In this document: positions 2,127 through 62,700 of the stretch, one piece after another
Position numbering within the stretch: position 1 is the stretch's first letter
How the letters are laid out: each line of letters starts with the position of its first letter
DNA from: Microglena sp. YARC
Lineage: Eukaryota > Chlorophyta > Chlorophyceae > Chlamydomonadales > Chlamydomonadaceae
DNA: 64,000 nt
Direction of reading: 5' to 3'
Assembly (NCBI GenBank): GCA_022414725.1
Contig: CM039463.1
Span: 36,160,863-36,224,862, forward strand
Program-made: the position numbers and the translations under genes
The notes under the pieces: generated by a model
The model's input: the letters and a program-made list of their open reading frames with translations, nothing else
The model's database searches: none
Told to the model about the DNA's origin: nothing

Positions 2127-2708
2127 CAAAACAATACCCAAATGAATGCAGGTTCAAACCGCCCAGCAGAAGACTCTCTCCCACAAGAAGTGTGTTGATG
2201 GTGGTTGGCGCAATATCATGGTGGTTGGCCCCAGTGCAAGCAAACAGGCTAAAATCCGCAACCTCAAGCCTCGATACAAGGCGCAATATATATTTATTTA
2301 TTTATACAGGTTCAAACCGCCCAGCGGAAGACTCTCTCCCACAAGAAGCGAATCGACGGGCGAACTAGAGCGGGTCAGTGGGGCACAGTGAGTGGGGAGG
2401 AGGCCCATACAAGTGTCAATACAAAACAATAGGCCTGCAAAACAACCTGCTAAGCAATACCCAACTGAATACAGGTTCAAACTGCCCAGCGGAAGACTCT
2501 CTCCCACAAGAAGCGAATCGACGGGCGCACAAGAAGGGGTCAGTGGGGCACCGTGAGTGGGGAGGAGGCCCATACAAGTCTCAATACAAAACAACAGGCC
2601 TGCAAAACAACCTGCTAAGCAATACCCAACTGAATACAGGTTCAAACTGCCCAGCGGAAGACTCTCTCCCACAAGAAGCGAATCGACGGGCGCACAAGAA
2701 GGGGGCAG
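2127..2708 (+). repeat. Acceptor-side exon-edge copies, second block
   Basis: It continues the array at 186-650 beyond the hAT insertion. Two further ~165-bp units contain CTGCCCAGCGGAAGACTCTC, a GGGTCAG acceptor and GTGAGTGGGGAGGAGGCCCA, and lead directly into the complete exon at 2709. Around 2224-2310 there is an inverted copy of the 90-bp dispersed repeat also seen at 4675-4760. Confidence 0.7.
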
Positions 2709-4396
2709 TGGGGCACCGTGAGTGGGGAGGAGGCCCAAGCCGTGATCCCTGTGGAGGACCTTGCTGCTATCATTCGGAGGGTGGAGGAGCTGGACAAGGC
2801 GCACCAACGGGCCATGAACAACTTCACTGGCCAACTGCCTACACAGGTAGGGTGTTTGTATATCAGCTGTCTATGTATGCACATACACTGTGTATACAAG
2901 CATTATACACGTATATTTTTATTTTTGTATTTATTTATACTAGCATTATATAGGTAAGGACAGAGCAGGACAAGCGCACCAACGGGCCATCAACACCTTC
3001 ACTGGCCAACTGCCTACACAGGTAGGGTGTTTGCATATCAGCTGTATATATTTTTACATTCAGATCATTATACAGGTATGCATTTATTTATTTGTTTATT
3101 TATTTAATTATTTTATATACTAGCATTATACAGGTAGGGGCAGAGCTGGACAGGGCGCACTAACGGGCCATGAACAACTTCATTGGCCAACTGCTTGCAC
3201 AGGTAGGGTGTTGCCTGCACAGGTAGGGTGTATATCAGCTGTATATTGTTGTATTTATTTATAGTAGCACTGTAGGAGCATATTGTATATTTATATCAGC
3301 ATATATATTGTGTATATGTATTCAAGCATGTATTTTGTATTTATTTATACAAGTATTATACAGGTAGGGACAGAGCAGGACAAGGCGCACCAACGGGCCA
3401 TGAAAGACTTCACTGGCCAACTGCCTACACAGGTAGGCTGCTTGTATATCAGCCTTTTAATTTATATACTACCATTATACAGGTAGGGGCAGAGCAGGAA
3501 AGGGCGCACCAACGGGCCAACACCAAGCGCAGGCGCAGTTGCGGTCTGCGAAACCAAATAAACCCAACCTTCTAGCCATTCTCCAGAATGTACGGTACAT
3601 GCAAACGGGAGGGTTCCTTCAATCTCACGTCCTGTGGCAGCTCGTACTAATTTTCAATTTGTTTACAGTCCAGGGGTAGCCTACTAGGATCAGGATACTA
3701 CTTCTTGCCAAATTGGTCAGCGCTTAAAGCGCACAAACGTCAAATTGGTCAGCGCTTCGTAGTGCAAAAAGCGCAAAAACTGCGCGCTGCGCCCATAGGG
3801 GGTTGAAAAAACTGCGTGAAACGCGCGGTGGGGCTCAAAAAGTGTGCGCGAAATCGCGCTGCCGTGCGCGCTTTGTAGTTCCCTGGCTAGGATAAAGGGA
3901 CTTGCCTAACCTCAAAAACTCAAGAAACTCATCTAATATCTGTGTCCCAAAAATTATGTAATAAACATTTAATGTATAGATTCATATTAGACATGTGTCC
4001 CAATTTCACTTTGATTCCAGGCACATGACCAAGTTCGATATAATACCATTTCACTTTAATTTCACTTTAATTTTACTTCGATTTCAGACACATGACGAAG
4101 TTTGCTTCCACTTTGATTTCAGGCACATGACGAAGTTCGATATCAAACAATATAATACCATTTCACTTTGATTTCACTTTCATTTCACTTTGATTTCACT
4201 TTGATTTCAGGCACATAACAGAGTTGGATATAATACAATATAATACAATCTCACTTTGATTTCACTTTGATTTCAGGCACATGACGAAGTTCGCTTCCTC
4301 TTGTATCGCCTGGACTACACCGAATTCTACAAGAGGCGCGCAACCGTGGATGGAGAGGGTGACGATGATGATCAGGGTGATGCCATGGAGCAGTAA
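2709..4396 (+). CDS. 3' end of an unrecognised acidic-tailed protein gene, two exons
   Basis: Exons 2709-2846 and 4277-4396 (stop TAA 4394-4396) join in phase 0. Exon one starts after a GGGGGCAG acceptor and ends CCTACACAG/GTAGGG. Exon two starts after TTTGATTTCAG. The visible 85 residues include EDLAAIIRRVEELDKAHQRA, FTGQLPTQ, then AHDEVRFLLYRLDYTEFYKR and a tail GEGDDDDQGDAMEQ. The first half is probably a helix, possibly a coiled coil, and the tail is strongly acidic. The start lies upstream, probably beyond the window. I do not recognise the family. The case for a real gene is the phase match, the good splice sites and normal amino-acid composition beside repeats. Both exon edges are multiplied in the flanking introns and the last exon's end is multiplied downstream, so transcripts could vary. 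Confidence 0.6.
2847..3521 (+). repeat. Donor-side exon-edge copies downstream of exon 2709-2846
   Basis: Four copies of the last ~70 nt of the exon (CAAGGCGCACCAACGGGCCA through CTGCCTACACAG) plus the GTAGGG donor: about 2947-3022, 3134-3203, 3362-3433, and a truncated one at 3482-3521. An extra short GCACAGGTAGGG lies near 3225. Each is separated by AT-rich intron with TATTTATTTATA. The first donor, at 2847, belongs to the only copy with a complete exon. Confidence 0.8.
3696..3890. repeat. Dispersed ~195-bp repeat, inverted copy at 31230-31430
   Basis: It contains CTTCTTGCCAAATTGGTCAG, repeated CAGCGCTT and CTGCGCGCTGCGCCCA. The reverse complement of 31230-31430 aligns along the whole length. 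The outer ends ACTAC and GTAGT are short inverted repeats, suggesting a MITE. I could not find a convincing target duplication. Confidence 0.7.
4010..4276 (+). repeat. Acceptor-side exon-edge copies before exon 4277
   Basis: Four copies of the acceptor plus exon start, CAGGCACATGACGAAGTTCG or close variants, near 4017, 4086, 4121 and 4206. Each is followed by TTTCACTTTGATTTCA polypyrimidine sequence. The fifth copy, at 4277, continues into the complete exon. One copy reads CAGACACATGACGAAG and one CAGGCACATAACAGAG. Confidence 0.8.
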
Positions 4397-4680
4397 CAGG
4401 GCCTAGGGTAGCAAGCCAAGCCAAGCTGGGTAGCAAGCCAAGCCAAGGAGAGGGTGCCGATGATGATCAGGGGATGCCATGGAGCAATAGCAGGGCATAG
4501 CCTTGGCTTGACTGGGCTGGGCAGCAAGCCAAGCCAAGGAGAGGGTGACGACGATGATCAGGGGGATGTCATGGAGCAATAGCAGGGCATAGCCTTGGCT
4601 TGGCTGGGCAGCAAGCCAAGCCAAGCCAAGGAGAGGGTGACGATGATGATCAGGAGGATGCCATGGAGCAGTAGATAAAT
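4397..4680 (+). repeat. Copies of the last-exon end and start of the 3' region
   Basis: Tandem units carry GGAGAGGGTGACGATGATGATCAGG-like sequence followed by GATGCCATGGAGCA and TAG or TAA, copied from the end of the preceding CDS, with AGCCAAGCCAAGG spacer. Three copies lie here and two more near 5337-5395 and 5424-5480. Confidence 0.75.
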
Positions 4681-4760
4681 AAATAAATAGTACGTTTTAT
4701 TACGAGGCGTGAGGTTGAGGGGGTTAGCCCGTTTGCTTTCACTTGGGCTAAACACCAAGG
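4675..4760 (-). repeat. Dispersed ~90-bp repeat
   Basis: AAATAAATA followed by GCGTGAGGTTGAGGGGG and GCCCGTTTGCTTTCACTTGG. The same element, as GAGGTTGAGGGGGCCAGC, occurs three times at 45475-45925 inside the FHA-gene array. Inverted copies lie at 311-395 and 2224-2310. Confidence 0.7.
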
Positions 4761-5130
4761 CAAAGAAGGACAGCCAAGGCAAAGGAGCCAAGCCAAGGCA
4801 AGGTAATGAAGCCAAGCCAAGGCACTGGGGCCAACCACCAAGGCAAAGAAGGACAGCCAAGGCAAAGGAGCCAAGCCAAGGCAAGGTAAAGAAGCCAAGC
4901 CAAGGCACTGGGGCCAACCACCAAGGCAAAGAAGGACAGCCAAGGCAAAGGAGCCAAGCCAAGGCAAGGTAAAGAAGCCAAGCCAAGGCACTGGGGCCAA
5001 CCACCAAGGCAAAGAAGGACAGCCAAGGCAAAGGAGCCAAGCCAAGGCAAGGTAAAGAAGCCAAGCCAAGGCACTGGGGCCAACCACCAAGGCAAAGAAG
5101 GACAGCCAAGCCAAAGAAGCCAAGCCAAGG
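4757..5130. repeat. 82-bp tandem repeat, 4.5 copies
   Basis: Unit begins CACCAAGGCAAAGAAGGACA and recurs near 4837, 4919, 5001 and 5084, almost identical. It is built from AGCCAAGGCAA submotifs. Open minus-strand frames (Leu/Trp/Pro-rich) are by-products. Confidence 0.9.
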
Positions 5131-5639
5131 CAAGGCTTGCTTTCACTTGGGCCAACCACCAATAATGAAGCGGTAGCAGGGCATAGGTTTTCCTTTCAGC
5201 TACCAGCAGCAGCTTTAGGGCAGCTCCTGAGCCAGCCACTGGGCTAAGCCGTAAGATCTCAAAGTATTCAAAACATGTTTTTGAATGATTTCAGAGGCAC
5301 TGCGTTGCTATAGGCTTGGCTGGGTAGCAAGCCAAGCCATGGAGAGGGTGACGATGATGATCAGGGGATGCCATGGAGCAGTTGCGGGGCATAGGTTTTG
5401 AGGTTTGGGTAACAAGCCTAGCCAAGGAGAGGGTGACGATGATGATCTGGGGAATGCCATGGAGCAGTAGCAGGGCATAGGTTTTATTTTCAGCCACCAG
5501 CAGCAGCTTCAAGGCAGCTCCCCAGCCAAGCCTATGGAGCATTAGCAGGGGAGCAGTAGCAATGCTGGCCACACACACGTACTTCTTCTACTCCTGCCCA
5601 GTGTTCAAATCGTCATGTTTCGCGCCCTAAAACACACAC
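5131..5639. repeat. Mixed repeat remnants, no gene seen
   Basis: It contains two partial foldback ends (CAGCAGCTTTAGGGCAGCTC near 5210 and CAGCAGCTTCAAGGCAGCTC near 5503) and two copies of the last-exon tail motif GATGCCATGGAGCAGT. No open frame with coding character. Confidence 0.6.
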
Positions 5640-6235: not shown

Positions 6236-6299
6236 TGATGAGATGATGATTTAATTATGTTGTAGAATTAAATGATCACTGTAGCACGAAGTCAGGGCC

Positions 6300-7394: not shown

Positions 7395-7611
7395 AACAAA
7401 AAACCCTTTCTTTCATGGGAGGCCGGTACGATTCTGAAGACCCCGACGGCTTTTCATGAGCCATCTATGGCTTTGGCCACTACAATGTTATGAACAGAGA
7501 TCTCTGGGTATGAATGAATGAATGAATGAATGAATTGGTCTTTGAGTGCACAAAAGCATACAAACAAAAACCGCCCGTTCGCAAGGTACACACAAGAAAT
7601 GAATTCCCCCC

Positions 7612-7842: not shown

Positions 7843-7873
<31 letters not shown>

Positions 7874-16131: not shown

Positions 16132-19100
16132 GCCTTTGTACTTCTTGCTGCACTTGCTGGCTAGGGTACTGGGCTGTCTACTGTGTTGTTGCCTTTGTAG
16201 CACTTGCTGCGCTTGCTGGCTATGGTACTGGGCTGTCTGTTGTTGTTGGTGCACTTGTAGTAGCAGTTGCTGCACGTCCTGGGTTGTTAGTCCTTGTTGT
16301 TGCAACTGCTGCAACTGCTGCAAGAGCTGAACCTGCTGTGCGAATTGCACTTGATGTGCAGTAGTTTGTTGTTGTCCTGGCTGCACACCTGATTGTTCGA
16401 GGCCTGATGTACCGTGACATGATGTATTTTCACGCACATGCTTTGTAGGAGTTAGCGGCTGTTTTTGTTGTTCTCGCTGTTGCTGTGGTTGTTCTTCCTC
16501 TTGATGCTGATTTGAGGTTGGTGTAACCCTGCCTCTGATTCGCTTTTCCAGGTGCCTTGTGGGAGTGTGCTGCGGTGATTGTTGTGGTGTTCTTTGACGT
16601 ACTGATTTCCCCTGAACCACATTGGTCTTGTTTTCTTTGGGTCCTTTTTGGTGTACGTTGCATGTGTCAGCGGCACAATGCGTTGGGCAAAATAAGCACC
16701 CCTTTTTCTGGATTGTGTTGCACATCTGAGTACGACAGTGAGAATTCTCTTTCTTATTTCTAGGCGCGTACGTGCTGTGGTGCTGTTCTGTGGTTGCATG
16801 GTGCTGTGTTACTGCGGTGCTGTGGTGCTCAGGTGCTGTTGTTCTGTGCTGTGTAATGGTTGCATGGTGCTGTGGTAATGTGGTACTGTGTTGCCGAGGT
16901 GCTGTGGTTCTTTGCTGTGCTTTGGTTGCATGGTGCTGTGGTGCTGTGGTACCGAGGTGCTGAGGTGCAGTGGTTCTGTGCTGTGCTGTTGCTGCGTGCT
17001 GTGCTGCTGCCTTTTTTTCAGCTTTTTGTGCGGCTATTTTTTTGACGTGTTCTAAGAGGTCTTCTTGGGCTATCACCTTCCGCTTTGCTTCTTCTTCCAG
17101 TTTCCAATTTTTTTCCTCCTCCCCGCTGAACACTAGCAAGTCCCAAACGTCTTCCTGGTCCTTGATAGCCTTCTGAGCTTTTCGGCTAGGCTCTGACAAG
17201 TGAGACCTGCAAACAGTGAAATACGGTTGTCATGCGGTGTGCAATGCGGCACTCAACTTTATCCTGCCCTGCCCTGCCCTGCTGCTCTATCCTGCTCTAT
17301 CTTGCCCTGCCCTGGTGCTCTATCCTGCTCTATCTTGCCCTACCCTATCCTGCCCTGCCCCATCCTGCCCTGACCTATCTTGTCCTGCCCGATCCTGCCC
17401 CGCACTGCTGATCTATCTTGCCCTGCAATGCCCTATCCTACCCTATCCTGCCCTGCCCTGCCCCTTCGTGCCCTGACCTATCTTGCCCTCCCTTCTACTG
17501 CCCTACTCTGTCCATCCTCCCCTATACTGCCCTGCCCGCCCAATCTGGTCCCATCTTACCCTGCCCTATCCTCCCCTTACGTACCAGGACTGGTTCAACC
17601 AATTTGCCATGAGGCCATGGTCACGGTGACTAGCCTCGCCAAAGTAGACATCCATCGATACGTGTTTTTCAGGAGTTGCAGTCCACAACCTTTTGTAACA
17701 CCGGTTCATGGATTCACAAGAGGAATTGGTGCGATGTGTTGATGCTCTCATGCCCTCAGGCAATTCGGTGGTGGTACCGACATATTGGTTGTGTGATGTG
17801 TCCTACCTGAGTCCTCAGTACGCATGAGATGTGCGTGTGCGGGGGGGGGGGGTGGAAGGGGTTGGCACTCACAGAGGTAGAAAAGCAATGTTGGCCAAAG
17901 TGGATGAAAGTGGCATAGATGAATAGGTATTTGCAAATGAGTAATGTCACTGAAAGTTTCATAAAAAAAAAATGAGTCTGATGTGTCCTACCTGAGTCCT
18001 CAGTACGCATGAGATGTGCGTGTGCGGGGGGGGGGTGGAAGGGGTTGGCACTCACAGAGGTAGAAAAGCAATGTTGGCCAAAGTGGATGAAAGTGGCATA
18101 GATGAATAGGTATTTGCAAATGAGTAATGTCACTGAAAGTTTCAACAAAAAAAAATGAGTCTGATGTGTCCTACCTGAGTCCTCAGTACGCATGAGATGT
18201 GCGTGTGCGGGGGGGGGGTGGAAGCGGTTGGCACTCACAGAGGTAGAAAAGCAATGTTGGCCAAAGTGGATGAAAGTGGCATAGATGAATAGGTATTTGC
18301 AAATGAGTAATGTCACTGAAAGTTTCATAAAAAAAAATGAGTCTGATGTGTCCTACCTGAGTCCTCAGTACGCATGAGATGTGCGTGTGCGGGGGGGAGG
18401 GTGGAAGGGGTTGGCACTCACAGAGGTAGAAAAGCAATGTTGGCCAAAGTGGATGAAAGTGGCATAAGATGAATAGGTATTTGCAAATGAGTAATGTCAC
18501 TGAAAGTTTCAACAAAAAAAAATGAGTCTGATGTGTCTACTGAGTCTCAGAGAGTGTGCATGAGATGTGCGTGTGCGGGGGGGGGTGGGAAGGGGCTTGG
18601 CACTCACGGAGCGGAGGTAGAAGAAGCAATGTTGGCCAAAGTGGATGAAAGTGGAGATGAAACTAGGTGCAATGAGTATGTCACTTGAAAGAGAAAGTGC
18701 AACACAAAAATGAGTCTGCATGTGTATGTCCTCCTACCTGAGTCCTCAGTACGCATGAGATGTGCGTGTGCGGGGGGGGGAGGGTGGAAAGTTGGCACTC
18801 ACGGAGTAGATAAGCATGTTGGCCAAAGTGGAATGAAAGTGGGATAGATTGAATGGTTTTGCAAATGAGCTAAAGGTGGCACGAAAGTTTGCATAAAAAA
18901 AAGATGAGTCTGATGTGTCTAACTGAGTCCTCAGTACAAATGAGAATGTGCGTGTGCGGAGGGGGGAGGGTTGAATAGGGGGTGGCACTCAAAGAGGTGA
19001 AGTAAATAGCAATGTGGCACAAAGTGGATGAAAGCATGGAATAGGCAAGATGGGATTTTTGCATGCAATGGTATTTGCAAATGAGTTAATGTCATGAAAG

Positions 19101-44035: not shown

Positions 44036-44284
44036 TGTTCTCTAGAAATCCCCGGTTTCCGTGGTTCTCAAACGGGGGGTAATTGTTCGCCACAATGTGC
44101 AGACGGTTAGACGCCAAACCTGGCGTATAGAACCTTGCTACAATTATTCTAATGAGGACGAATGATTTTTCACTGCCAGCACTGACTGCACGAAGCTTAA
44201 GCACTGAACGATAAAGACAACAGCCTGTGGCATGCTTGTCTTTGCAAGTGAATAATCAGTCACGCGGTCTCCTATTCTACCAGC

Positions 44285-44800
44285 CTGTCTAATTTTCTGC
44301 CTACCTGTCAACTCTTTTGCTTGCCTGTCTGCCTACTCTTCTGCATGCCTGCCTGTCTACTTTTCTGCCTACCTGTCAACTCTTCTGCCTACTCTTCTGC
44401 CTGCCACGGTCTGCTTTTCTGCCTACCTATCATCTCTTCTGCCTGCCTGCCTGTCTACTTTTCTGCCTACCTGTCAACTCTTCTGCCTGCATGTCTGCCT
44501 ACTCTTCTGCCTGCCTGCCTGCCTATTTTCCTGCTTGTCTGCTTACTGTTCAGCCTACCTGTCAACTCATCTGCCTGCCTGCCTGTCTACGTTCCTGCTT
44601 GTCTGTCTACTTTTCTGCTTGCCTGCCTATTTTTCTGCCTGTCTGCCTACTTTTCTGCCTGCCTGCCTACGTTTCTGCCTGTCCACTTTTCTGCCAGCCT
44701 GTCTACTTTTTTGCCTGCCTGTCTACTCTTCTGCCTGCCTGCCTGTCTACTTTTCTGCCTATCTGTCAACTCTTCTGCCTGCCTGCTAACTTTTTTGCTG
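44285..44800. repeat. Minisatellite of CTGCCTGCCTGTCTACTTTT
   Basis: Irregular 12-24-bp units. It creates open Cys/Leu-rich frames on the plus strand that are not genes. Confidence 0.9.
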
Positions 44801-44829
44801 CGAATTTAGCTGTCATCTAGTGTCATTCC

Positions 44830-46024
44830 TGAATATTTTATATCTGTCATGCGATCTTGTCTCTCTACCAACTTCTGTGCAAATGTCTCATATTTTGAAT
44901 TTATGTATGAGACGGGCATATTTTTGAAATATCATGTGGTTTCCTGTCTCACCTCCAACTTCTGTGCAAATGTCTCATATTTTGAATTTATGTATGAGAC
45001 GGGCATATTTTTGAAATATCATGTGGTTTCCTGTCTCACCTCCAACTTCTGTGCAAATGTCTCATATTGTGAATTTATCTGCCATCCCTGAATATTTTAT
45101 ATCTATCATGCAATCTTGTCTTTCTACCGACTAATGTGCAAATGTCTCATATTTTGAATTTATATATGAGACGTGCATATTTTTGAAATATCATTTGATT
45201 TTTGCCTCTCATCCAAGTTCTGTGAAAAGGTCCCATACTGTGCATTTATCTACCGTCTCTGATTATAATATAATATATCTATTATGCGATTCTTGTCTTT
45301 CTAACGACTTCTTGCCAAATGACCCATAATTTGAATATAAATTAGAGACTTGCACATTTTATATATATAACATGTGTTTTCTTGTCTCACCTTAAACTTC
45401 TATGCAAATGTCTCATACTGCATATATATGTCAGCTGTGAGGCAGCCGTATATATTTTACAAGACATAAATACATAAATAAATAGAACACGTTATTACAA
45501 GGCATGAGGTTGAGGGGGCCAGCCCGTTTGCTCGCACCGGGGCCAACCACCTATATATATTTTAAATCTACCACATGATTCATATCTTACAGCCAATTTA
45601 TGTGCAAATGCTTCATATTGTGCAGTTGTATGTCAGCCGTCAGGCAGCTGCATAAACAACTAAAGAAATAAATAGCACACCATATTACGAGTCGTGAGGT
45701 TGAGGGGGCCAGCCTGTTTGTTCGCACCGGGGCCAACCACCAATATGTATTTTATATCTATGACATGATTCATGTCTTATCTCCAACTTCTGTGCAAATA
45801 TCTCATACTGTGCAGTTATATGTCAGCTGCCAGGCAGCCGTATCAATAAATAAATAGTACACATTATTACAAGGTGTGAGGTTGAGGGGGCCAGCTCGTT
45901 TGCTCGCACCGGGGTCAACTACCAATATATATTCTATATCTATCACATGATTCATGCCGTACCTCCAAATTCTGTACAAATGTCTCATACTGTGCGGTTA
46001 TATGTTGGCTGTAGGGCAGTCGTA

Positions 46025-46071
<47 letters not shown>

Positions 46072-46121
46072 ATAGATAAATATACATGTATTGTATATCA
46101 ATCACATGATTCATGTCTTAC
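44830..46121 (-). repeat. Donor-side exon-edge copies of the FHA-gene exon 46122-46202
   Basis: About ten copies of the exon's last ~30 nt plus donor (minus strand: CATTTGCACAGAAGTTGGAG/GTGAGA and variants), near 44868, 44954, 45044, 45128, 45215, 45303, 45392, 45591, 45781 and 45961. The distal ones are ~86 bp apart; the proximal ones ~185 bp because each gained the 90-bp dispersed repeat (GAGGTTGAGGGGGCCAGC). Several keep a usable GT donor; those at 45215, 45303 and 45781 have lost it. Intronic motif ATTTTATATCTATCACATGA is shared. Confidence 0.8.
46016..46085. repeat. (AAAT)n microsatellite
   Basis: About fourteen AAAT units within the exon-edge array, expanded from the AAATAAATA end of the 90-bp dispersed repeat. 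Confidence 0.95.
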
Positions 46122-49100
46122 CTCCAGCTTCTGTGCAAATGTTTCATATTGTGCTTGCATCAATTGCTCAATGCTGATGTCTGCTAACATCTGTGCCTCC
46201 ATCTGCACACAAGTTGGGGAAGAAGACAACATGCACACCGTTTCAGGCTCCTTGGTACGAACATCATGAATCACACAAACAAAATGGAGCTCTGGGCCAA
46301 GTACCCTGAGCAGAGCAGCGCACTGTTTCGCCTTTGAGCTAAGAGTAGCAGCCTCTAGACAGCTCTCTTTCCCTGCCAATTTCCCTGACAAATTTGGGGA
46401 CGAGGACAACATGCATATGTTTTCAAGCCCGTCAGTAAAACGATTGTTTAGGATCCAGGTCAACAATGCTTTTTCTTTTCAGCCCTTCCTGTCACGGTTG
46501 GGTAAGCCTGTTTAGCCTACTTGGCCTACCCTTGGACTGTAACATACATACATCTATTCATATATGGTTTCAGGCTGAAGGTTGGAGACAGCATGTATGC
46601 ATATCGATGGAGGATACGTGTATGTGTGGGTTTGGCCGCAAGGCGTTTGTGTGGGTTTAACTTTGGGTTCGGGGTTTAAGCGTTGTTTACGTTTTGGTTC
46701 GGGGTTTGGGTTTAAGTTTGGGTTCAAGAGTGGTTTAAGTTTGGGTTCAGGGTTTGGGTTTAAGTTTGGGTTCAGGGATTGGGTTTAAGTTTGTTTAAGT
46801 CTGATCAGATACCAAGAAGGCACTCGTGTCCTAGTAGTTCACGCTGACAATAATGCATGTTCCGGGAGGGAGACGATGATTACCCAGAGGTTCTGCTAGT
46901 CCACTGCCAAGCACGCACTCGGCTATTGGTCTAACGAATTGGGGGCAACTTAGTACTGATCAAGATCCGCACCCCGCCTGCGTCCCGCGACCTTCAGGGA
47001 GGGGTCAAACCCCCCCGTTTCCCTCCCAGGTCAGGCACTCGTGTCCTAGTAGTTCACGCTGACAGGTTCAGGGTTTGGGTTTAAGTTTGGGTTCAGGGTT
47101 TGGGTTTAACTTTGGGTTCAAATCTGGTTTAAGTTTGGGTTCAGGGTTTGGGTTTAAGTTTGGGTTCAAGAGTGGTTTAGGTTTGGGTTCAGGGTTTGGG
47201 TTTAAGTTTGGGTTCAAGAGTGGTTTAAGTTTGGGTTCAGGGTTTGGGTTTAAGTTTGGGTTCAAGAGTGGTTTAAGTTTGGGTTCAGGGTTTGGGTTTA
47301 AGTTTGGGTTCAAGTGTGGTTTAAGTTTGGGTTCAGGGTTTGGGTTTAAGTTTGGGTTTGAGTGTGGTTTAAGTTTGGGTTCAGGGTTTGGGTTCAAGTG
47401 TGGTTTAAATTTGGGTTCAGGGTTTGGGTTTAAGTTTGGGTCCAAGTGTGGTTTAAGTTTGGGTTCAAGTGTGGTTTAAGTTTGGGGTTCAAGTGTGGTT
47501 GAAGTTTAGGTTCAGGGTTTGGGTTTAAGTTTGGGTTCAAGTGTGGTTTAAGTTTGGGGTTAAAGTGGGGTTTAAGTTTGGGTTCAGGGTTTGGGTTTAA
47601 GTTTGGGTTCAAGTGTGGTTTAAGTTTGGGGTTAAAGTGGGGTTTAAGTTTGGGTTCAGGGTTTGGGTTTAAGTTTGGGTTCAAGTGTGGTTTAAGTTTG
47701 GGGTTCAAGTGTGGTTTAAGTTTGGCTTGTGGTTGGAGAAAGCAAGCACGTGTGTGAATGGAAGAGACGTGTGCAGGTGTGTATGTCTGCAAGGTGTTTG
47801 TGAGTGTGGGTTTGAGTTTGGCTTGAGGTTGAAGGCTGAAGGTTGGAGGTTGGAGAACGTATGCATCTATGTTGACGGAGGAGAAGTGTGCATGTGTGCA
47901 GTACAGTAATGTGTATGCACGAGTGCGAGTGTGGGTTTAAGTTTGGCTTGAGCTTGACGGTTAAAGGCTTGCGGTTGGAGAAAGCATGCAAGTGTGTGAA
48001 TGGAAGAGAGGTGTGTCTATGTGTGTATGTCAGCAAGGTGCTTGTGAGTGTGGGTTTAAGTTTGGCTTGAGGTTGACGGTTAACGGTTAAAGGCTTGCGG
48101 TTGGAGAAAGCATGCACGTGTGTTTATGAAAGACAAGTGTGCGTGTGTATGTGTGCAAGGTGTTTGTGAGTATGGGTTTAAGTTTGGCTTGAGGTTGAAA
48201 GCTGAGGGTTTGAGGTTGGAGAACACATGCATCTATGTTGACAGAGGAGAAGTGTGCATGTGTGTAGTACAGTTAGGTGTGTACATGAGTGTGCGTTTGC
48301 TTGCTTGCTTGCTTGAGGTTAAAGGTCGAAAGTTTGAAGTTGAAGGATGAATGTATGCATGTTGAAGGAAGAGAGGTGTGTATGCATGTATGACCGCAAG
48401 GTGTGTGTGTGTGTTTATGTGTGTATGACCTCATAGTGTGTGTGTATGTGTAGGGATCGGCACTAATATTAGTCTGGAAAAACACCTATGTGAACTAATA
48501 TTAACTAATATTAACTAATATTAGTATGTTAGATTTCAGATTTGATTTGCCCAAATCAACTTCTGAAAAATGGAATCAAATATGTCATTGAATAACTAAG
48601 CTAGCAATGGAGCCGGATTTTGATGGGAGCCAGTCTGGATGGTTGCAAAAATGAAACAAAGCAGGTGTACCGCGGAACGCAGAACTAGCGTAACACGGAA
48701 CTAGCCCGTGGCCTAATGCCCTATCAAAATTGTGCCCAAACATTGTGGGCTTGGCCAGCAGAGGTGGTGTGGTAACACTATGTCTGTATCACTAGGAAGT
48801 ACAAAATCCGTCTAATATTAGTCGGCTCCGCCGTCTAACATTAGTTAATGTTAACTAATATTAGTAATTAACTAACATTAACTAACACAGCCGATCCCTA
48901 TGTATGTGTGTATGACCGCACGGTGTGTGTACGTGTGTATGACTGCAAGGTGTGTGAGTTTGAGTTTGCCAAGAGGTTGATTGTTGACTGTTGAAGGCTT
49001 GCAGTTGAAGGATGGATGTTGATGAAAGAGAAGTGGGCATGCATGTTTGACAGAAAGGTGTGAGTGAGTGAGTGAGTGAGTGAGTGAGTGAGTGAGTGAG

Positions 49101-50227
49101 TGAGTGAGTGAGTGAGTAAGTGAGTGTAAGTTTGGCTTGCAGTTGATTGTTGTGTGTTGAAAGCTTTAATCTGAAGGATGTATGTTGATGGAAGAGAAAT
49201 GTGGATGTGTGGATGACAGCAAGGGGCAAGTGAGTGCATGTGAGTGTTCAAGCGTGTGTGAATTTATGTGCCCGATTGGACTCCAAGTGTGCCCGCAGTT
49301 TGTCTTTCGCAGTTATGGGGGACTTTTGACATTTGTTCAAGTGTGCTTGTGTGTGTGGGATAGAAGTAGGAGGTGGACGGATGCAGCTGTGCAAAGTGGT
49401 GAATGAGGGGTGTGAATGCGGGAGTGGTGCTTGTGTGTGTGGGATAATGGCTGGAGTCATGTTAACAAGTTCAAGGTTGAGTAACACGCTACAAGGACTC
49501 ACCTGAACGCTGGCTATACTATCAGTGCCAAACAAGATGGAGTCTCCTTGCTTCAGCACCACAAGCTCAACTGCATGGCGACATAGTGCAGCAGCATGGT
49601 GTTGGTGGGAGGGTGATGATGGATTATGTTTTTGATAGCATTTTGGGGTGCATCACTTGAGTGCATCATCATGCCTTTCACATTACATTGTCTTAGGCCA
49701 GCCATTGTTGGCCCAAGACAAGCCTGCTCCACACATCTGGGGGGGGCTTGCAATTATTCTCTGGCAGATAAATGAGCATAATTAAGGAAGAAACTAGGCA
49801 GTGAGGCGAAGGAGCAAAGGAGCAAAACAAAATGGTTTAGCGCTTGTTGTCTACATCATTTGTAGTCGACAGACAGTAAGGCGACATGAGATGCATGGAA
49901 CGATGTAATATTTATTTGTCTGCTACCTAGGGGCTGAAGCATGCGGCCATTTATCTGGGTCCCGTTGGAGCTGCCCAAATCTCGTAGAGCCCAGGAGCTC
50001 CCATTCCAAAAGATCTCGGCATGCTTTTCAGACACCGATGAATCTTTAATATGGATCTTGCTCGCCCTGGTGCGTCCAATTGAGAAGAAGAATCCCTTGG
50101 GGGCGTAGCCCTGCCCCCTGCACGGTCCTCCCGAGAGAGAGAGGCTGAATCGTGAGGGCACCTGGATACAGAGCTCTTCGACAGCTTCTTTGCCCTGAGC
50201 ATCGTTGCCAGAGGTGCTAGGCCCCAT
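46122..50227 (-). CDS. FHA-domain protein gene, N-terminal three exons
   Basis: ATG 50225-50227. Exons 50227-49927, 49570-49503 and 46202-46122 join in phases 1 and 0 with donors CTAG/GTAGCA, CAG/GTGAGT and GAG/GTAAGA. Residues about 40-115 form a forkhead-associated domain: FSIGRTRASKIHIKD with the Gly-Arg, then SVSEKHAEIFW with the Ser..His pair, then DLGSSNGTQING with the Asn-Gly, then VLKQGDSILFGTDSIASVQ as last strands. Those residues bind phosphothreonine peptides, so the product is probably a phospho-dependent adaptor in nucleus or cytosol. After the domain MEAQMLADISIEQLMQAQYE is a helix. No start-proximal targeting signal. The C-terminal exons are not visible and may lie beyond the 18-bp array. 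It diverges from the ASA8 gene. Plant FHA proteins, including the kinase-associated phosphatase type, are similar, but no phosphatase domain is seen. Confidence 0.78.
46430..46565 (+). repeat. Dispersed repeat, second copy of 6300-6440
   Basis: CAGTAAAACGATTGTTTAGG through GGACTGTAACATACATACAT; direct match to the first copy. It lies within an intron of the FHA gene. Confidence 0.75.
46640..47740. repeat. Minisatellite of TTTGGGTTCAGGGTTTGGGT
   Basis: Units of 18-20 bp combining GTTTAAGTTTGGGTTCA and GGGTTTGGG, with a ~60-bp higher-order unit (TTCAAGAGTGGTTTAAG). It resembles, but is not, a telomere repeat. Split at 46813-47065 by unrelated sequence. Open frames (GSGFGFKFGFKSGL, PNPEPKLKPHLNPN) are artefacts. 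Confidence 0.93.
46813..47065. repeat. Unique block bounded by 30-bp direct repeats inside the minisatellite
   Basis: GGCACTCGTGTCCTAGTAGT followed by TCACGCTGACA occurs at about 46819 and 47034. The ~185 bp between them includes GGGAGGGAGACGATGATTAC and CCCGCCTGCGTCCCGCGACC. It could be an insertion or a block that was tandemly duplicated with its flank. Confidence 0.7.
47741..48420. repeat. ~110-bp tandem repeat, five to six copies
   Basis: GTGTGGGTTTAAGTTTGGCT, TGAGGTTGAAGGCTGA and GAGAAAGCATGCA plus GAAGAGACGTGTG, with TATGTGTGCAAGGTGTTTGT between. A further copy at 46575-46650 lies before the minisatellite. Confidence 0.85.
48451..48900 (+). mobile_element. hAT-type MITE, 450 bp, with 8-bp target duplication
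   Basis: Starts TAGGGATCGGCAC and ends CAGCCGATCCCTA, with TGTATGTG duplicated at 48443-48450 and 48901-48908. It is very similar to both ends of the element at 859-2126 and lacks its ~830-bp interior. Inserted in TG-rich repeats within an FHA-gene intron. Confidence 0.92.
49055..49125. repeat. (GTGA)n microsatellite
   Basis: About seventeen GTGA units. On the minus strand this gives a Leu-Thr-His-Ser frame of no significance. Confidence 0.95.
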
Positions 50228-50756: not shown

Positions 50757-51124
50757 ATGACTCTCGGTGAGGCTTACCTTAAGGATATTCTGAGGCCACC
50801 ACCCACTGGCTTCGTGCCCCAGAATGTTGCCCATCCCTTCCAGAAGTCCTCTTACACGTACTTGACGAAGAAGTTCTTTCCCCGACATTGGTACCTGGCT
50901 GCTGGCTTCGCCTTCACCATCACCATGTATGGTCAGCTTGATGGTCTTCGTGAATCTGGAAAGAAGGGCGCCTACGATAGCGCTGTAGAGGCTGGAAAGA
51001 CCCCTTGTAAGTGAATTCACGATCGCTTGCGTCGACGATTGAGGTTTATCGCACCGCCCACTTCGATCATGCCACTGATGCACGTTCTCACTTTTCTGCT
51101 GCAGACACCGCCGGAGGCCATTAG
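50757..51124 (+). CDS. ASA8: Mitochondrial ATP synthase subunit ASA8, two exons
   Basis: Exon 50757-51006 ends ACCCCTT/GTAAGTG. Exon 51105-51124 follows CTTTTCTGCTGCAG and ends TAG at 51122-51124. The product is 89 residues, the length known for ASA8. It opens MTLGEAYLKDILRPPPTG, has HPFQKSSYTYLTKKFFPRHW, one membrane segment about residues 46-63 (WYLAAGFAFTITMYGQ), then LDGLRESGKKGAYDSA and the family ending GKTPYTAGGH, which only appears after splicing. ASA proteins (ATP synthase associated) form the large peripheral stalk and dimer contacts of the atypical F1Fo-ATP synthase in Chlamydomonas and Polytomella, replacing the usual stalk subunits; ASA8 is a small inner-membrane subunit. No cleavable presequence is evident. 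The exon-intron layout is compact, with no repeats in the 98-bp intron. Confidence 0.93.
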
Positions 51125-55969: not shown

Positions 55970-57125
55970 TCAGTGTCTCCAAGCAAATGCGCCAGGGTCG
56001 GCAACCTGCACTGGCGGTTCCATGGGGATCTCTGTCTCCAGGTCGATGGGCTTGCCTGCGTTGATGGTCAGGTCCAGGTGGTTGAGGCGCATGGTGCCCA
56101 GGGGGGCTTCAGGCAGCTCCCACGGGTGGATGCCCTCCAGCACAAAACCTGGGTGGCAGGGGTTTGGGTTTGGGTTTGGGTTTGGGGGGGGGGGGGGGGG
56201 AGTTGGGTTGAGGGGTTGGGGGGGGGGGGGATACAATGATATGATGGTGTCTGTGTGTGGGTTGCACGGGTGGATGCCATTCAGCACAAAACCTGGGTGG
56301 CAGGGGTTGGGGTTGGGGTTGGGTGGGTGGGCTGGGGTTGGGGGGTTGGGGGGGGGATACAGTGATATCAAGGTGTCTGTGTGGGGGTTGCACGGGTGGA
56401 TGCCCTCCAGCACGAAACCTGCATGGCAGGGGTTGGGGTTGGGTTGGGTTGTGGGGGGAGTTGGGTTGGGGTTGGGTTGGGTTGTGGGGGGGAGTTGGGT
56501 TGGGGTTGGGTTGGGTTGTGGGGGGAGTTGGGTTGGGGTTGGGTTGGGTTGTGGGAGGGAGTTGGGTTGGGGTTGGGTTGGGTTGTGGGGGGGAGTTGGG
56601 TAGGGGTTGGGTTGGGTTGTGGGGGGGAGTTGGGTTGGGGTTGGGGGGTGTGATACAATGATATTAAGGTGTCTGTGTGGGGGCTTCACGGTGGATGCTC
56701 GCGTAGGCTGAATAGAGGACGGGGAAAAGGCAAAGAAAGGCACAGAAAGGAAAGATATGAAAGCATGTACCTATGTCTACGACCAGCCTCTTGGTGGTCC
56801 CCCTCACAAGAGAAGTAGCATGGTTGGCAACCGCGCTTGCCGTATAGAGGACAGGAAAAGGCGAAGCAAGAAGAAAGACTAAGAAATTAAAAGAAATGAA
56901 GACACGCACCCATGTCAACGACCAGCTTCTTGGTGGCTCCCCTCACAAGAGCGGTAGCATAGTTGGCAACCGCGTTGGCTGAAATGTCAATGTCGATCTC
57001 AATGTACTGCGCCGTTTCGTGGTATGTCGTCTTCAAGGCCTGGAGAGAGGCAGCACACGGGTTAAGGGTTCACTCATCTAGCCAATGCCCACACTTATGT
57101 GTGCCTGTGTGTGTATGTGTGCGCC

Positions 57126-57156
<31 letters not shown>

Positions 57157-58519
57157 ATGTGTGCGTGCGTATGTGTGCGCCTGTGTGTGTTTGTGCGGGT
57201 GTGTGCGCGTCTGTGCGTGCGTATGTGTGCGTGGGTGTGTGCCTGTGTGTGTATGTGAGCGCCTGTGTGTGTTGTGTTGTGAGCGCCTGTATGTGTGCGT
57301 ATGTGTGCGGGTGTGTGCGCGTCTATGCGTGCGTATGTGTGCATAGATGTGTGCCTGTGTGTATGTGTGCGTGCGTGTGCATGTGTGTGAGCGTGTGAGT
57401 GTGCTCATGCTGCATTTATCTGTTCCTCTTTCATGGAGAGCTTGAGTGTGAGAGTGAGTGTGGGGTTTATGTTTATGTTTATGTTTATGATTAGGTTCTG
57501 TCCTCGCAAGTGCACGATGAGCTGCATTTGTTTAGTTGTGAAAGGATTTTCACCCCAGGAGGTGGGTCTCCCTACGCAAATCAGCGACCCGAGGATTTAG
57601 TTTGAATGGCGCTGCCACTCCTACAAAAGAGTAGGCGCACTTAAGGTCGGTGGGAGATACCGACCCTCGACCAAACGAACATTCACCGCCACCCCTATTG
57701 ACCACGACAGACGATGTGCTGCAATTTCAAGCTCATACGGAAGCCGTTGAGGCGTCTTACGTGCGTCTCGGTAGGGTGAGGGTAGGCTGAGGTGCGGTGT
57801 GGTGTGCTAGGCTGTGCTGAGCTGTGGTGACGCGGAATATGAACCTGAGTGCATGCGTGTCTGGTTGCGAGTTAATGCGCTTGTAATCGACAGAGTGTGC
57901 ATTTGTCTGCCCCTGGAACATATGCCCTTACTATTAAGATTGTTGGAGTTTGGACAAGTCCCTTTGGTTCATTTGGCTGCCCCTGGACTGTAACATAAAT
58001 ACATGCCTGTCTGCCCTATCTTCACCCACATACCTTGCCGATGATGACAGGCTTCACTCCCACTGCTTGCTTGATCATCCAAGGCCCGACCTCGATGTGG
58101 GGGATGAGCTTGAGCATTGTGTTGCGTGTGGCACAGTCCCCGTGGACGAACCTACACAACACGCAAGGAAGAGCAGATTATAAGGAAAGGTGAGCATGAA
58201 GTTGCATGTGGCGCAGTTCACATGGACAAACCTACATAACACGCAAAAAAGTGCAGATAAGGAAAGGTGAGCATGAAGTTGCGTGTGGCGCAGTCTACAT
58301 GGACGAACCTACATAACACGCATCACAATGCTCAAGCTCATCCCAAGTCAAAGGGCGTCCAGCCAATCCCCCCCCCCCCCCCCCCCACTCCCCTGCCCAA
58401 CCTGTCACTGCCCCCCCCCCCCCCCCCCACCCCACACACACACACCTGTGCAGCAGGAAGTCAAAGGGTGTTCAATCATGACCACCCTTGAGCATGGAGT
58501 TCTGTAGCCGCTCCCCCCC

Positions 58520-58550
<31 letters not shown>

Positions 58551-61500
58551 ACACACCTGTGCAGCAGGAAGTCAAAGGGCGTCCAATCATGACTGCCCTG
58601 CAGCATGGGGTTCTGTGGCCTCTCTCCCAACATACGCGGGTGGCTTTCGCTCACAAAGGACGCTACAAATCCTAGGAGTGGGGTGCCTGGCATGGTGATG
58701 TGGATGATGATGCCAAAAGGCATGCCGCTCCTCCGGATGGCGGGCAGGAAGCGAGCAATGTGGTCCATGGGGTGGGGCACGGGCACAATGTCGATAGAGG
58801 CCAGGGTGAACGCGCAACGACCAGCCGGGATTTTCTTGCGGTCTGTCAAGTACTTGGCGCCTCGTACCACAAAGGGGGCAGCCTGGGGCAATGGAGTTGA
58901 TCAGGTGATGTGGATGGTGATGTGGATGGTGATGTGGATGGTGATGTGGATGGTGATGTGGATGGTGATGTGGATGGTGATGTGGACAGTGATGTGGACA
59001 GTGATGTGTTCCATGGGGTGGGAAAACGGGCACAATGTCGATGGAGGCCAGGGTGAACGCACAACGACCAGCCGGGATCTTCTTGCGGTCTGTCAAGAAC
59101 TTGGCGCCTCGTACCACTAAGGGGGCAGCCTGGGGCAATGGGGTTGATCAGGTGATGTGGATGGCGATGTGGATGGTGATGAGTTCCATGGGGTGGGACA
59201 ACGGGCATAATGTTGATAGAGGCCAGGGTGAACGCACAACGACCAGCCAGGATCTTCTTGCGGTCTGTCAAGTAATTGGCGCCTTGTACCACAAAGGGGG
59301 TAGACTGGGGCAATGGGGTTGATCAGGTGATGTGGATGGTGATGTGTTCCATGGGGTGGGACAACGGGCACAATGTCGATAGAGGCCAGGGTGAACGCAC
59401 AACGACCAGCCGGGATCTTCTTGCGGTCTGTCAAGTACTTGGCGCTTCGTACCACAAAGAGGGCAGCCTGGGGCAATGGGGGGAATAAGGTCCTTGGTGA
59501 TGGTGATGTGGATGATGATAGCAAAGGGCAAGCCCCTCGTTCGGATGGAGGGTAGCCTGGGGCAATGGGGACAAGTCCTATGCAGCATCGCAAGGGACGC
59601 GGAAAAATGGCGGAGTTTGTTGGCAACGGAACGAAAGTTGGCAACGATGGAGCTGACCGAAGCGAGTTAGTTACGCGACCGTTGGATGACGTGTCAGGCT
59701 TTAAGCAATTTTCGGTCGGACAAACAGACAAATGGGTAAACATGGGGGCCCCCTTGAAGAGGGGGCTCCGCCAAAAATACAGGTACTGGTGATGTGGATG
59801 GTGATGATGATGATGATGATGATGATAACAAAGGGCATGCCGCTCGTCCGGATGGCGGGCAGGAAGCGAGCAATGTGGTCCATGGGGTGGGGCACGCGCA
59901 CAATGTCGATAAAGGCCAGGGTGAAAGCGCAACGACCAGCCAGGATCTTCTTGCGGTCTGTCAAGTACTTGGCGCCTCGTACCACAAAGGGGGCAGCTTG
60001 GGGCAATGGGGTTGATCAGGTCATTGGTGATGTGGATGGTGATGTGGTCCATGGGGTGGGACAACGGGCACAATGTTGATGGAGGCCAGGGTGAACACGC
60101 AACGACCAGCTGGGATCTTCTTCCGGTCTGTCAGGTACTTGGCGCCTCGAACCACAAAGGGGGCAGCCTGGTGTAACGTGTTCCCAAACAAGCATTTTGT
60201 GAGATGAGAGCAGTAGCCAATAAACAAACAAATGGCTAATGGGGATCTTTTGCCGTCGGTCAGCTACTTGGCCTCTCGAAAGACAAAGGGGGCAGCCTGG
60301 TGTAACGTGGTGCAAAACAAATATTATTTTATATAACAATTTGTATACAGTATTATTTGAAGTATTATTTTATACATTATTCCCTGCATTATTCGGGCAT
60401 TATTCTTTATTATTTTACCTTGCCAGGCACATGCAGCTGGTCCCATGTAGTGTGATCCAGCGTTGAAATACACAACTATCACATGCAGCAGCCTGGCACT
60501 ATGTAGTACATTTTGTGCCGCACCACACACACACACAAACAAACTCATACCGGTCACATACCCCCCTACAACCCCCTACAAAAGTACGACCCCAACACAT
60601 ACCCACCAACAACCCACACATACACACATACCTTGCCAGGCACATGCAGCTGGTCCCATGTAGTGTGATCCAGCGTTGAAACACACAACTACCACATGCA
60701 GCAGCCTGGCACTATGTAGTACATTTTGTGCTGCACCACACACACACACAAACAAACTCATACCGGTCACATACCCCCCTACAACCCCCTACAAAAGTAC
60801 GATCCCAACACATACCCACCAACAACCCACACGTACACACATACCTTGCCAGGCACATGCAGCTGGTCCCATGTAGTGTGATCCAGCGTTGAAATACACA
60901 ACTACTACATGCAGCAGCCTGGCACTATGTAGTACATTTTGTGCTGCACCACACACACACACAAACAAACTCATACCGGTCACATGCCCCCCTACAACCC
61001 CCTACAAAAGTACGACCCCAACACATACCTACCAACAACCCACACATACACACATACCTTGCCAGGCACATGCAGCTGGTCCCATGCAGTGTGATCCAGC
61101 GTTGAAATACATTACAATCCACAAGCAGCAGCCTGGCACTATGTAACACATTTTGTGCTGCACCATACACACACACACACACAAACAAACTCCTACCGCT
61201 GACATACCCCCCTACAACCCCCTACAACAGTACGACCCCACCAACAACCCACACATACACACATACCTTGCCAGGCACATGCAGCTGGTCCCATGCGGTG
61301 TGATCCAGCGTTGAAATACACAACTACCAAATGCAGCAGCATGAAACTATGTAACACATTTTGTGTTGCAGCACACACAAACAAACAAACTCATACTGCG
61401 CACATACCCACCTACAAACCCCTACAACAGTACAACCGCAACACATACCCACCAACAACCCACACATACACACACAAATGCACGCGTACCTTGCCAGGCA

Positions 61501-61950
61501 CATGCAGCTGGTCCCATGTAGTGTGATCCTTGTTTTTGCACCACACACACGCTCAGACACACACACACACACACACTCAGACACAAACGCACGCATACCT
61601 TGCCAGGAGACATGCAGCGGGTCCCATGTAGTGTGATCCTTGTCTTTGCATCACACCTTCATGCATCTGGTCCCATGAAGTGTGATCCAGCGCAGAAATA
61701 TGTTTTTACCACATGCAGCAGCATGAAACAATGTACAGATGCCGTGTTGCAGCACACACACACGCACACACATACACACACACACACGCACGCACGCACA
61801 CACGCACGCACGCACACACAAACACACACGCACGCACACACGCACGCACGCACGCACACACGCACGCACGCACACACTCTCACACACACACACACGCACG
61901 CACACACACACACACACACACGCACGCACGCACACACACACACACACACT

Positions 61951-61992
<42 letters not shown>

Positions 61993-62700
61993 CATACCGC
62001 GCACATACCCACCAACAACCCCCACATACACACACAAACATAGACCTAACTTGCCAGGTACATGCAGCGGGTCCCTCGTAGTTTGATCCAGTGTAGAAAA
62101 ACGTTATAACCACGTGCAGCAGCATGACAAAAAGAAGTAATGATAACGCCTGGTGGGGCGTGGTATTAAGGGAGCCCCGTCTTAACTATGTTAAACATGC
62201 TGTGTTGCAGCATACACACATACACACATACCTTGCCAGGCACATGCAGCTGGTCCCATGTAGTGTGATCCAGCGTTGACATCGCCCTAATCCTGTCGAT
62301 ATCTAACCCCACTCGTGTGCTGGCGGCAGTGCCATCGCTACTACTGGACGCTGCCTGCTCCTCCTCCCCCTCCTCTGCAGCTGGCCGGGCTAAGCCCCCC
62401 CCACTGCTGCCCTCCTCGTCTGAAGACACCCGCCTAGCTGGCATCTTGGCCTGAGCTGCCCGTAGAGCGATGGTGGCAGCGGCCCGTACCGCCTCCTCTG
62501 TTGTACCGCTGATTGAAGCGACGCCCACGCTCACGACCGCCCCCACCCCGGACTCCTCCTGGCTTTGGATCAGGATCTCCTCTGTACTGCAGGAGTACAT
62601 TCGCTGCTCTAGGGAATGCATTCGTTCGCCCTCAATGTGCGCCCCGTCGTCTAAGTCTATCATGGAAGCTGCTGAGAAGCTGCCTGCTGAGCTGGCTCCC
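55970..62700 (-). CDS. EDR2_C (DUF1336) domain protein gene, five visible exons
   Basis: Exons 62700-62232, 58882-58557, 58151-58034, 57039-56910 and 56148-55970 (stop TGA 55970-55972) join in phases 0, 2, 0 and 1, all with GT/AG ends. The last four encode a ~250-residue EDR2 C-terminal domain: [20 protein letters not shown], then [70 protein letters not shown] and [17 protein letters not shown]. The first exon is low-complexity (Ser/Glu/Ala) and ends [10 protein letters not shown]. In plants this domain follows PH and START lipid-binding domains in EDR2, a negative regulator of defence and cell death; a lipid-linked role is likely here but unproven. PH/START exons are not visible. Every intron carries copies of its flanking exon edges. 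Further 5' exons probably lie above 63100. Confidence 0.88.
56149..56909 (-). repeat. Intron of EDR2-like gene with exon-edge copies and G-rich array
   Basis: Three acceptor-side copies of the last exon's start (TTTTGTGCTGGAGGGCATCC-type) lie near 56257-56302, 56385-56420 and, degraded, 56678-56700. One donor-side copy of the preceding exon lies at about 56777-56846; read on the minus strand it gives [20 protein letters not shown] against the real [20 protein letters not shown]. Between them is a GGGTTGGGTTGTGGGGGGAG array (56430-56650). Confidence 0.85.
57085..57412. repeat. TG/CG-rich microsatellite
   Basis: (GTGTGC)n and (GTGTGCGTAT)n within the 57040-58033 intron. Confidence 0.95.
57413..58033. 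other. Intron sequence with dispersed-repeat fragments
   Basis: 57533-57575 is an inverted match to 9640-9680, and 57945-58010 matches the ends of 6300-6440 and 46430-46565. The ~250 bp between is unique; I see no exon in it. Confidence 0.5.
58152..58556 (-). repeat. Intron with two acceptor-side and two donor-side exon-edge copies plus poly-C
   Basis: Acceptor-side: about 58192-58235 and 58265-58310 repeat the first ~40 nt of exon 58151-58034 (TTCGTCCATGTAGACTGCGC type). Donor-side: 58446-58513 repeats the last ~60 nt of exon 58882-58557 with its GTGTGTG donor, and 58335-58365 is a shorter one. C tracts of about 18-24 bases lie at 58369, 58411 and 58514. Confidence 0.8.
58883..60300 (-). 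repeat. Acceptor-side exon-edge array in the EDR2-like gene
   Basis: About seven copies of the start of exon 58882-58557, with acceptor boundaries near 59129, 59304, 59467, 59556 (partial), 59997, 60167 and 60296. Each repeats up to ~130-190 nt (GCTGCCCCCTTTGTGGTACG, CTTGACAGACCGCAAGAAGA, then CCTCTATCGACATTGTGCCC). The copy near 59556 has a different, more internal exon piece joined to the acceptor. A GATGTGGATGGT minisatellite (58905-59000) lies between the real exon and the first copy. Confidence 0.88.
59570..59735 (+). repeat. Dispersed ~160-bp repeat inserted among exon-edge copies
   Basis: ACAAGTCCTATGCAGCATCG to AATTTTCGGTCGGACAAAC, sister of 53774-53935. It interrupts the acceptor-side array, so the array predates it. 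Confidence 0.75.
61740..61990. repeat. (CA)n/(CACG)n microsatellite
   Basis: Expansion of the (CA)n already present in each 213-bp donor-side unit. Confidence 0.95.
62132..62186 (+). repeat. ~55-bp mini-element, copy 2
   Basis: GTAATGATAACGCCTGGTGG through AGCCCCGTCTTA interrupts a donor-side unit. Neighbouring units read GCATGAAACTATGTAACAC without it, so this is a clean insertion of about 55 bp. Confidence 0.8.

Follow-up and report, generated by a model that had tools for sequence, protein, structure and literature searches.

Tandem copies of splice junctions inside introns of a green-algal genome

Introns in a 64-kb stretch of DNA (hereafter the window, C2:36160863-36224862) of a 568 Mb green-algal genome, for which its own assembly of 568,105,699 bases in 2390 contigs was used, contain tandem copies of their own splice junctions, each of which carries an exon edge, the splice site and adjoining intron sequence. 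The copies are confirmed as real and are not confined to the window, and they represent an unusual form of intron growth in most of the loci sampled, which is a variant of intron remodelling by tandem duplication. The growth probably results from local tandem duplication that is blind to gene structure, combined with the survival of units at exon edges and the inward extension of the intron.

Junction-crossing copies in the window and beyond

Each junction of the four genes of the window, which encode an EDR2_C-domain protein (EDR2), an FHA-domain protein (FHA), a gamma-tubulin complex component-like protein (GCP) and ASA8, was represented by a query of 60 exon and 30 intron bases that was aligned to its own intron, and a match was taken as a crossing copy when its exon and intron parts were no shorter than 12 and 6 nt, respectively. 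Crossing copies were found at 9 of the 17 junctions, namely at both ends of EDR2 introns 1, 2 and 4, at the donor of FHA intron 3 and at both ends of the GCP intron. The best scores at these junctions were 71-160, while 100 shuffles per junction gave top scores of 20-35. This bears out an earlier note on this DNA, which described junction-spanning units in introns of the GCP gene (placed there at 2709-4396), the FHA gene and the EDR2 gene. No copies were present at the other eight junctions, which are both ends of EDR2 intron 3, FHA introns 1 and 2 and the ASA8 intron; the last of these, with a length of 98 nt, had already been described as free of the pattern. In total, 32 crossing copies were counted in the window; the list of 36 copies also takes in four that do not reach the crossing limits. 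About 79% of the length of the five affected introns (6184 of 7795 nt, with one array limit placed about 20 nt beyond its proper position) is taken up by the interval from a real junction to its farthest copy. When the exons were searched against the whole window, their copies were located on the strand of the gene and next to it, with one opposite-strand exception that is weighed below.

The largest arrays occupy intron 1 of EDR2, which is encoded on the minus strand. The donor-side array (60419-62097) comprises eight listed copies of the exon-1 end with its donor, at sites 62050, 61599, 61490, 61267, 61058, 60845, 60632 and 60419, and its unit of about 213 nt includes 40-51 nt of exon (Tandem Repeats Finder (TRF) array 60416-61529, period 213). 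By eye, the 213-nt unit (62231-60419) seems to contain an older, decayed copy of the exon edge, which suggests nested rounds of duplication. The acceptor-side array of the same intron (59004-60301) comprises six listed copies, at sites 60297, 60168, 59998, 59468, 59305 and 59130, with the acceptor and 56-191 nt of exon 2. In EDR2 intron 2, one copy with 72 nt of exon and the donor is located at 58417-58517 (TRF 58411-58628, period 111), and two acceptor-side copies with about 41 nt of exon 3 are located at 58191-58322 (TRF 58121-58322, period 77). EDR2 intron 4 possesses one donor-side copy with 63-68 nt of exon 4 (56751-56835) and two acceptor-side copies with 28 nt of exon 5 (56265-56445), both of which would be in frame if used. 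On the same strand, FHA intron 3 has eight donor-side copies of the exon-3 end with about 33 nt of exon (44839-45995). The GCP intron, on the plus strand, carries donor-side copies with about 60 nt of exon (2963-3453; listed sites 3021, 3202, 3222 and 3432) and four acceptor-side copies with 15-26 nt of exon (4003-4225). A 165-bp array (2304-2737) also abuts the first GCP exon and extends about 8 nt past a candidate acceptor, which is under the crossing limit.

Genes outside the window were sampled by family, with chaperonin (PF00118), dynein heavy chain (PF08393) and adaptin (PF01602) picked because they were expected to be exon-rich, and not at random; FHA-domain genes (PF00498) were left out of the junction count. 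Exon hits were picked by hand, with single-exon genes, isolated hits and fragments dropped. Where repeated partial hits covered one stretch of a profile, the shorter or inner ones were dropped, a choice that presumes which copy is real; at one adaptin locus the later of two equal hits was taken, and among the four adaptin loci, two probably belong to a single gene. Splice sites were placed by GT/AG, phase and profile continuity. From 94 adjacent exon-hit pairs (46 + 48), 64 introns were obtained that satisfied the splice criteria, of which 63 had sufficient length for the test; two of the 28 entered loci had no tested intron, so that the sample comprises 26 loci.

Copies were detected at 61 of 126 junctions (29 donors and 32 acceptors), in 43 of 63 introns and at 22 of 26 loci on several chromosomes, with a total of 181 copies. 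The chaperonin genes contributed 19 of 52 junctions and 13 of 26 introns, and the dynein and adaptin genes 42 of 74 junctions and 30 of 37 introns; 18 introns had copies at both ends, and one acceptor in the dynein and adaptin set had 12 copies in its own intron. Dinucleotide-shuffled queries matched in none of 630 cases (0/260 + 0/370). The copies are also specific to their own intron and strand: the introns of other sampled genes were matched by 1 of 630 junction queries (1/260 + 0/370), an antisense search matched at 0 of 126 junctions, and copies of an exon edge were found in the far-side intron of the same exon in 0 of 54 cases. Exon-interior queries matched in 0 of 52 cases for the chaperonins and 4 of 126 for the whole sample. 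The decoy sites even appear unaided in the dynein profile search, in which the exon hit ending at C3:56953449 is followed by five partial matches to profile positions 226/228-259 and the exon hit at C1:29815188 is preceded by four partial matches to positions 313/314-343/346. This behavior is a caution for gene predictors and homology searches, which can report decoys as repeated partial exons.

The introns with copies are longer than those without (median 1374 versus 836 nt, p = 0.045 in the 63-intron sample). Four pairs of introns at the same positions in apparently paralogous chaperonin genes, the exon edges of which are identical at 44-57 of 60 positions, were compared, and apart from one 27-nt match all similarity outside the aligned exons involves exon-edge copies. 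The paired introns measure 2973 and 855, 2700 and 1504, 1374 and 637, and 819 and 944 nt, and in one pair five acceptor copies and one donor copy stand against two donor copies in the partner. Published median intron lengths are 198-343 nt in six related volvocine algae (PMC8226300), and a mean of 788 nt is given for Limnomonas (PMC11228838). The divergence of the copies from the real junction has a median of 10% (range 0-24%), with 6 of 181 copies identical to it, and copies of several ages probably coexist.

A possible route of intron growth and its alternatives

Based on these arrays, a possible route for intron growth is proposed. Local tandem duplication of segments that measure from tens up to a few hundred bases may be frequent and largely or wholly indifferent to gene structure, and duplications that alter a protein would be purged by purifying selection. 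Where one end of the duplicated segment falls in an exon and the other in the adjoining non-coding DNA, the duplication would be tolerated, because the outermost splice site (the first donor or the last acceptor) could still give the old mRNA, with the inner copies becoming intron; exon definition would let the spliceosome ignore the resulting half-exons. Over repeated rounds the intron would grow inwards and accumulate decoy splice sites that drift. Homology and one predicted protein model suggest that the outermost sites are those used. The statement in the earlier note that copies lie after donors and before acceptors is true but is no independent observation, because tandem duplication from exon into intron necessarily places the extra copies between the two.

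Duplication is not limited to splice junctions. Downstream of the GCP stop codon, the end of the coding region recurs in five copies (4447-5481, plus strand), four of which cross the stop-codon edge, which plays no part in splicing. Upstream of EDR2 exon 1, the 5' edge of this exon is present in two further copies (62871-63102, minus strand); the edge is either the start codon or a putative acceptor at 62700. No crossing copy was found at the EDR2 stop, the FHA start or the ASA8 start and stop, which gives copies at two of six non-splice edges, or at one of five if the EDR2 exon-1 edge is an acceptor.

The question of whether duplication prefers junctions bears directly on the earlier proposal of a general process of intron lengthening across exon-intron borders. 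The generality of the process is supported by the many genes and chromosomes affected and by the greater length of introns with copies, but its specificity for junctions is not established, because the side rule is geometric, a stop-codon edge behaves alike and intron interiors are duplicated at much the same rate on raw counts: 3529 of 7571 interior points (1028/2707 + 2501/4864, 47%) against 48% of junctions. By other measures, junctions are in excess by as much as 2- to 3-fold. The same comparison within the window alone (1218 of 2180 interior points versus 9 of 17 junctions) was set aside, as the window cannot show specificity, and a reading in which junctions have no preference at all was rejected as too strong given single-counting, simulations and the larger number of genes. 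Blind duplication is judged sufficient and more likely than a bias toward borders; the observations that weigh against it are given below with the alternatives to which they are relevant.

The alternative that survives best, though it is considered doubtful, is border-biased duplication, in which the amplification rate of junctions would be about 1.5- to 3-fold that of the intron interior, with breaks or slippage possibly triggered by GT-rich donors, pyrimidine-rich acceptors, R-loops or a polymerase paused at splice sites. When each duplicated site is counted once, copies are found at 28 of 69 junctions against 23% of interior sites in the window and chaperonin genes (p = 0.0015), and a second single-counted comparison gives 27 of 66 junctions against 22%. 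Part of this excess may be an age effect, because slow change in the real exon would keep its copies recognisable for longer. In an equal-age comparison, in which interior pairs at a divergence of x were set against exon parts at x/2, there was no significant excess up to x = 0.22, and an excess appeared at 0.26. The x/2 correction assumes a nearly frozen real exon, and the measured ratio of exon to intron divergence, 0.79 (0.66-1.02), implies a smaller and partial correction. Repeat families that cross junctions also outnumber internal ones by 56 to 34 (17:16 and 39:18), in a count for which the low-complexity filter probably underestimates the internal families.

Forward simulations of blind duplication, in which intact exons were the only filter, point in both directions. 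Short ancestral introns suffice to reproduce the junction rate: with ancestral introns of 150 nt, 36-48% of junctions were hit, and with those of 250 nt, 21-44%. Ancestral introns of 400-700 nt gave hits at only 11-34% and underpredict the observed rate when matched for coverage. Simulations that do agree with the junction rate yield too large a repeat-covered share of the intron (0.76-0.86 versus 0.47-0.63). Simulations on EDR2-like and GCP-like genes followed the same trend. The equal raw rates and the duplicated stop-codon edge count against a bias as well. It is likewise rather improbable that introns grow mainly by a ratchet that prefers junctions, with most genes carrying runs of competing near-identical sites and splicing picking the outermost site genome-wide. 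If the rate of duplication is blind to junctions, the arrays offer a neutral account of intron growth; if it is biased, they indicate a junction-linked source of DNA duplication.

A second alternative, in which the arrays of decoy sites or pseudo-exons have a function in the regulation of splicing or the production of isoforms, is regarded as very unlikely. Many of the decoy sites, which the earlier note suggested may compete, are intact: GT/AG is kept in 31 of 36 window decoys, and in the sample GT is kept in 71 of 86 donor decoys, compared with 79% for other dinucleotides, and AG in 85 of 94 acceptor decoys, compared with 81% (p = 0.02). This slight over-retention of AG is consistent with function, whereas in the window and chaperonin copies the splice dinucleotides were kept in 33 of 47 and 32 of 37 cases, neither of which differs significantly from other dinucleotides. 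The GCP donor copies also carry an upstream AG. Use of the listed window decoys would disrupt the reading frame in 34 of 36 cases; the two exceptions are the acceptor copies of EDR2 intron 4, through which a proline-rich segment would be added in frame, with a predicted extension of 48 or 90 aa (56149-56418).

Changes private to the decoys of the window fall at the three codon positions in proportions of 25/601, 16/605 and 25/596, which, as raw counts, form no clear coding pattern. When all mismatches in exon parts are considered, third positions are favored (54, 33 and 74 at the three positions; p = 0.0003, with some copies counted twice), as expected if silent sites had changed in the real exon. 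The private changes in the window are also fewer in the exon part of the decoys (66/1802) than in the intron part (65/780), a difference that counts in favor of function and is only partly explained by misaligned unit ends. Function is further disfavored by the apparent chaperonin paralogues, which differ in the end that is amplified.

Copies made from RNA or by mobile elements, through introner-like insertion or the retro-copying of pre-mRNA fragments, are very improbable. The units do hold exon together with intron, as unspliced RNA would, and a 29-nt opposite-strand match (28 of 29 bases identical) to the interior of EDR2 exon 3 is located in EDR2 intron 2 (58316-58344), which counts against the preferred account of local tandem duplication, because tandem duplication does not make inverted copies. 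In contrast, the arrays run head to tail, and the antisense, far-side and cross-gene searches described above argue against an RNA or mobile origin.

An assembly artefact, in which collapsed or misjoined reads generated the extra copies, is the least credible of these explanations: array copy numbers are hard to assemble and a few copies are identical to the real junction, but the median divergence, the recurrence in most loci and the near-absence of cross-gene and antisense matches are against it. The duplication of whole exons was also considered and is judged unlikely on the divergence and on the cross-gene, antisense and far-side controls.

Relation to known forms of intron gain and remodelling

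Tandem duplication is an established route of intron gain (PMC3443670, PMC2891723, PMC3629103). The closest precedent is an intron of the potato RdRp gene (PMC4974935), which arose when a tandem duplication spanned an intron-exon boundary. As in the alga, where copies of this boundary-crossing type were found, the tandem segment crosses the border, the copies have diverged and the splice signals are inherited from the old junction. The potato case is described as one duplication that gave a new intron in one gene, whereas in the alga existing introns are lengthened by several copies each, at both donors and acceptors and at nearly half of the sampled junctions. The model of tandem genomic duplication of AGGT-containing segments resembles the alga in that a local duplication yields duplicated splice sites and the protein can stay unchanged, but it duplicates exon sequence and creates an intron anew, whereas the algal units straddle existing junctions and are not exonic segments. 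In fission yeast, introns consist of 24-nt tandem repeats that extend into exons (PMC3629103), and there, too, the repeats of the intron are found in the flanking exon and the copies are not identical. The yeast introns are described for two genes, with short units, a cryptic AGGC and intron gain, in contrast to lengthening in the alga.

Introners (the subject of PMC9860276) share with the algal copies the genome-wide remodelling of introns, but they are common to many genes, whereas each algal copy is private to one intron; among the introns of the sampled genes, similar sequences dispersed over many genes were not seen beyond the single cross-gene match. A 2007 study is said, by its title, to deal with introns derived from tandem arrays, and it reportedly concerned intron creation rather than lengthening. 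The far-side and exon-interior controls also distinguish the copies from tandem exon duplication, in which whole exons are duplicated with both splice sites. The head-to-tail direct repeats characteristic of intronic minisatellites or variable-number tandem repeats are present, as TRF detects the EDR2 arrays and no junction of the sample had an antisense copy. Among the publications listed in the literature searched, none described the amplification of duplicated junctions in many genes as a way in which introns lengthen. The arrays provide a concrete route for introns to lengthen independently of transposons, which can be followed in a single genome through copies of differing divergence, and a natural experiment on splice-site choice, exemplified by the acceptor with 12 copies and by the mostly protein-breaking decoys of the window.

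Gene models and other repeats of the window

The exons of the window were rebuilt independently of the repeats wherever homologues permitted. The EDR2 gene (55970-62663, minus strand) was modelled from the EDR2_C domain, homologues, splice sites and frame, and its exons, placed by splice sites and frame, are 62663-62232, 58882-58557, 58151-58034, 57039-56910 and 56148-55970. The product of 394 aa contains the EDR2_C domain (PF07059, E 5e-53 in Pfam), and all four exon joins are covered by homologues from Gonium, Haematococcus and Chlamydomonas eustigma. Exon 1 may begin with the ATG at 62663 or, alternatively, at the putative acceptor mentioned above. A search of genome contigs and viral contigs with the EDR2 alignment found no relatives.

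The FHA gene (44260-50227, minus strand; PF00498) has exons at 50227-49927, 49570-49503 and 46202-46122, to which the EukProt model adds 44271-44260. Its spliced product reads identically to the 153-aa EukProt protein P0075, and the last exon of that model bypasses all eight donor copies of intron 3. Homologues are longer at the C-terminus than P0075. The last exon is thus uncertain, and FHA intron 3 is the least secure of the affected introns, because this exon rests on a predicted model and the homologues are longer. A PF00498 search across the genome gave 27 matches (for example, C1:6605911-6606150 and C5:20918525-20918764), 11 of which are located in open frames of exactly 224 aa; these frames look like a dispersed repeated element that carries an FHA domain.

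Two C-terminal exons of the GCP gene were placed at 2739-2846 and 4277-4396 on the plus strand, with the 5' limit of the first, at 2739, being provisional. The match to PF04130 (E 9e-5) is under the Pfam cut-off, yet it spans the exon join. The ASA8 gene (50757-51124, plus strand) consists of exons 50757-51006 and 51105-51124; exon 1 encodes 81 aa identical to EukProt P0056, and the last eight residues agree by eye. The ASA8 and FHA proteins match the EukProt entries 'gene7197-305_t' and 'gene7198-306_t'.

Tandem repeats are abundant in the window in general, 55% of which lies inside TRF arrays. The most extensive are an 18-bp unit with about 575 copies in a 10 kb array (33562-43901) and a 183-bp unit with about 50 copies (17794-26990). 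A Pfam scan of the regions 7-13 kb and 27-31.6 kb gave weak, sub-cut-off matches only, one of which is to a MULE transposase domain (about 28157-28287, minus strand, E 0.012); some of the remaining stretches were scanned as single open reading frames. Two stretches, at about 865-2127 and at 48452-48899, were noted by eye as a candidate non-autonomous mobile element, as they have similar ends (..gggatc.gc..aatattag.. and ..gccgatcccta).

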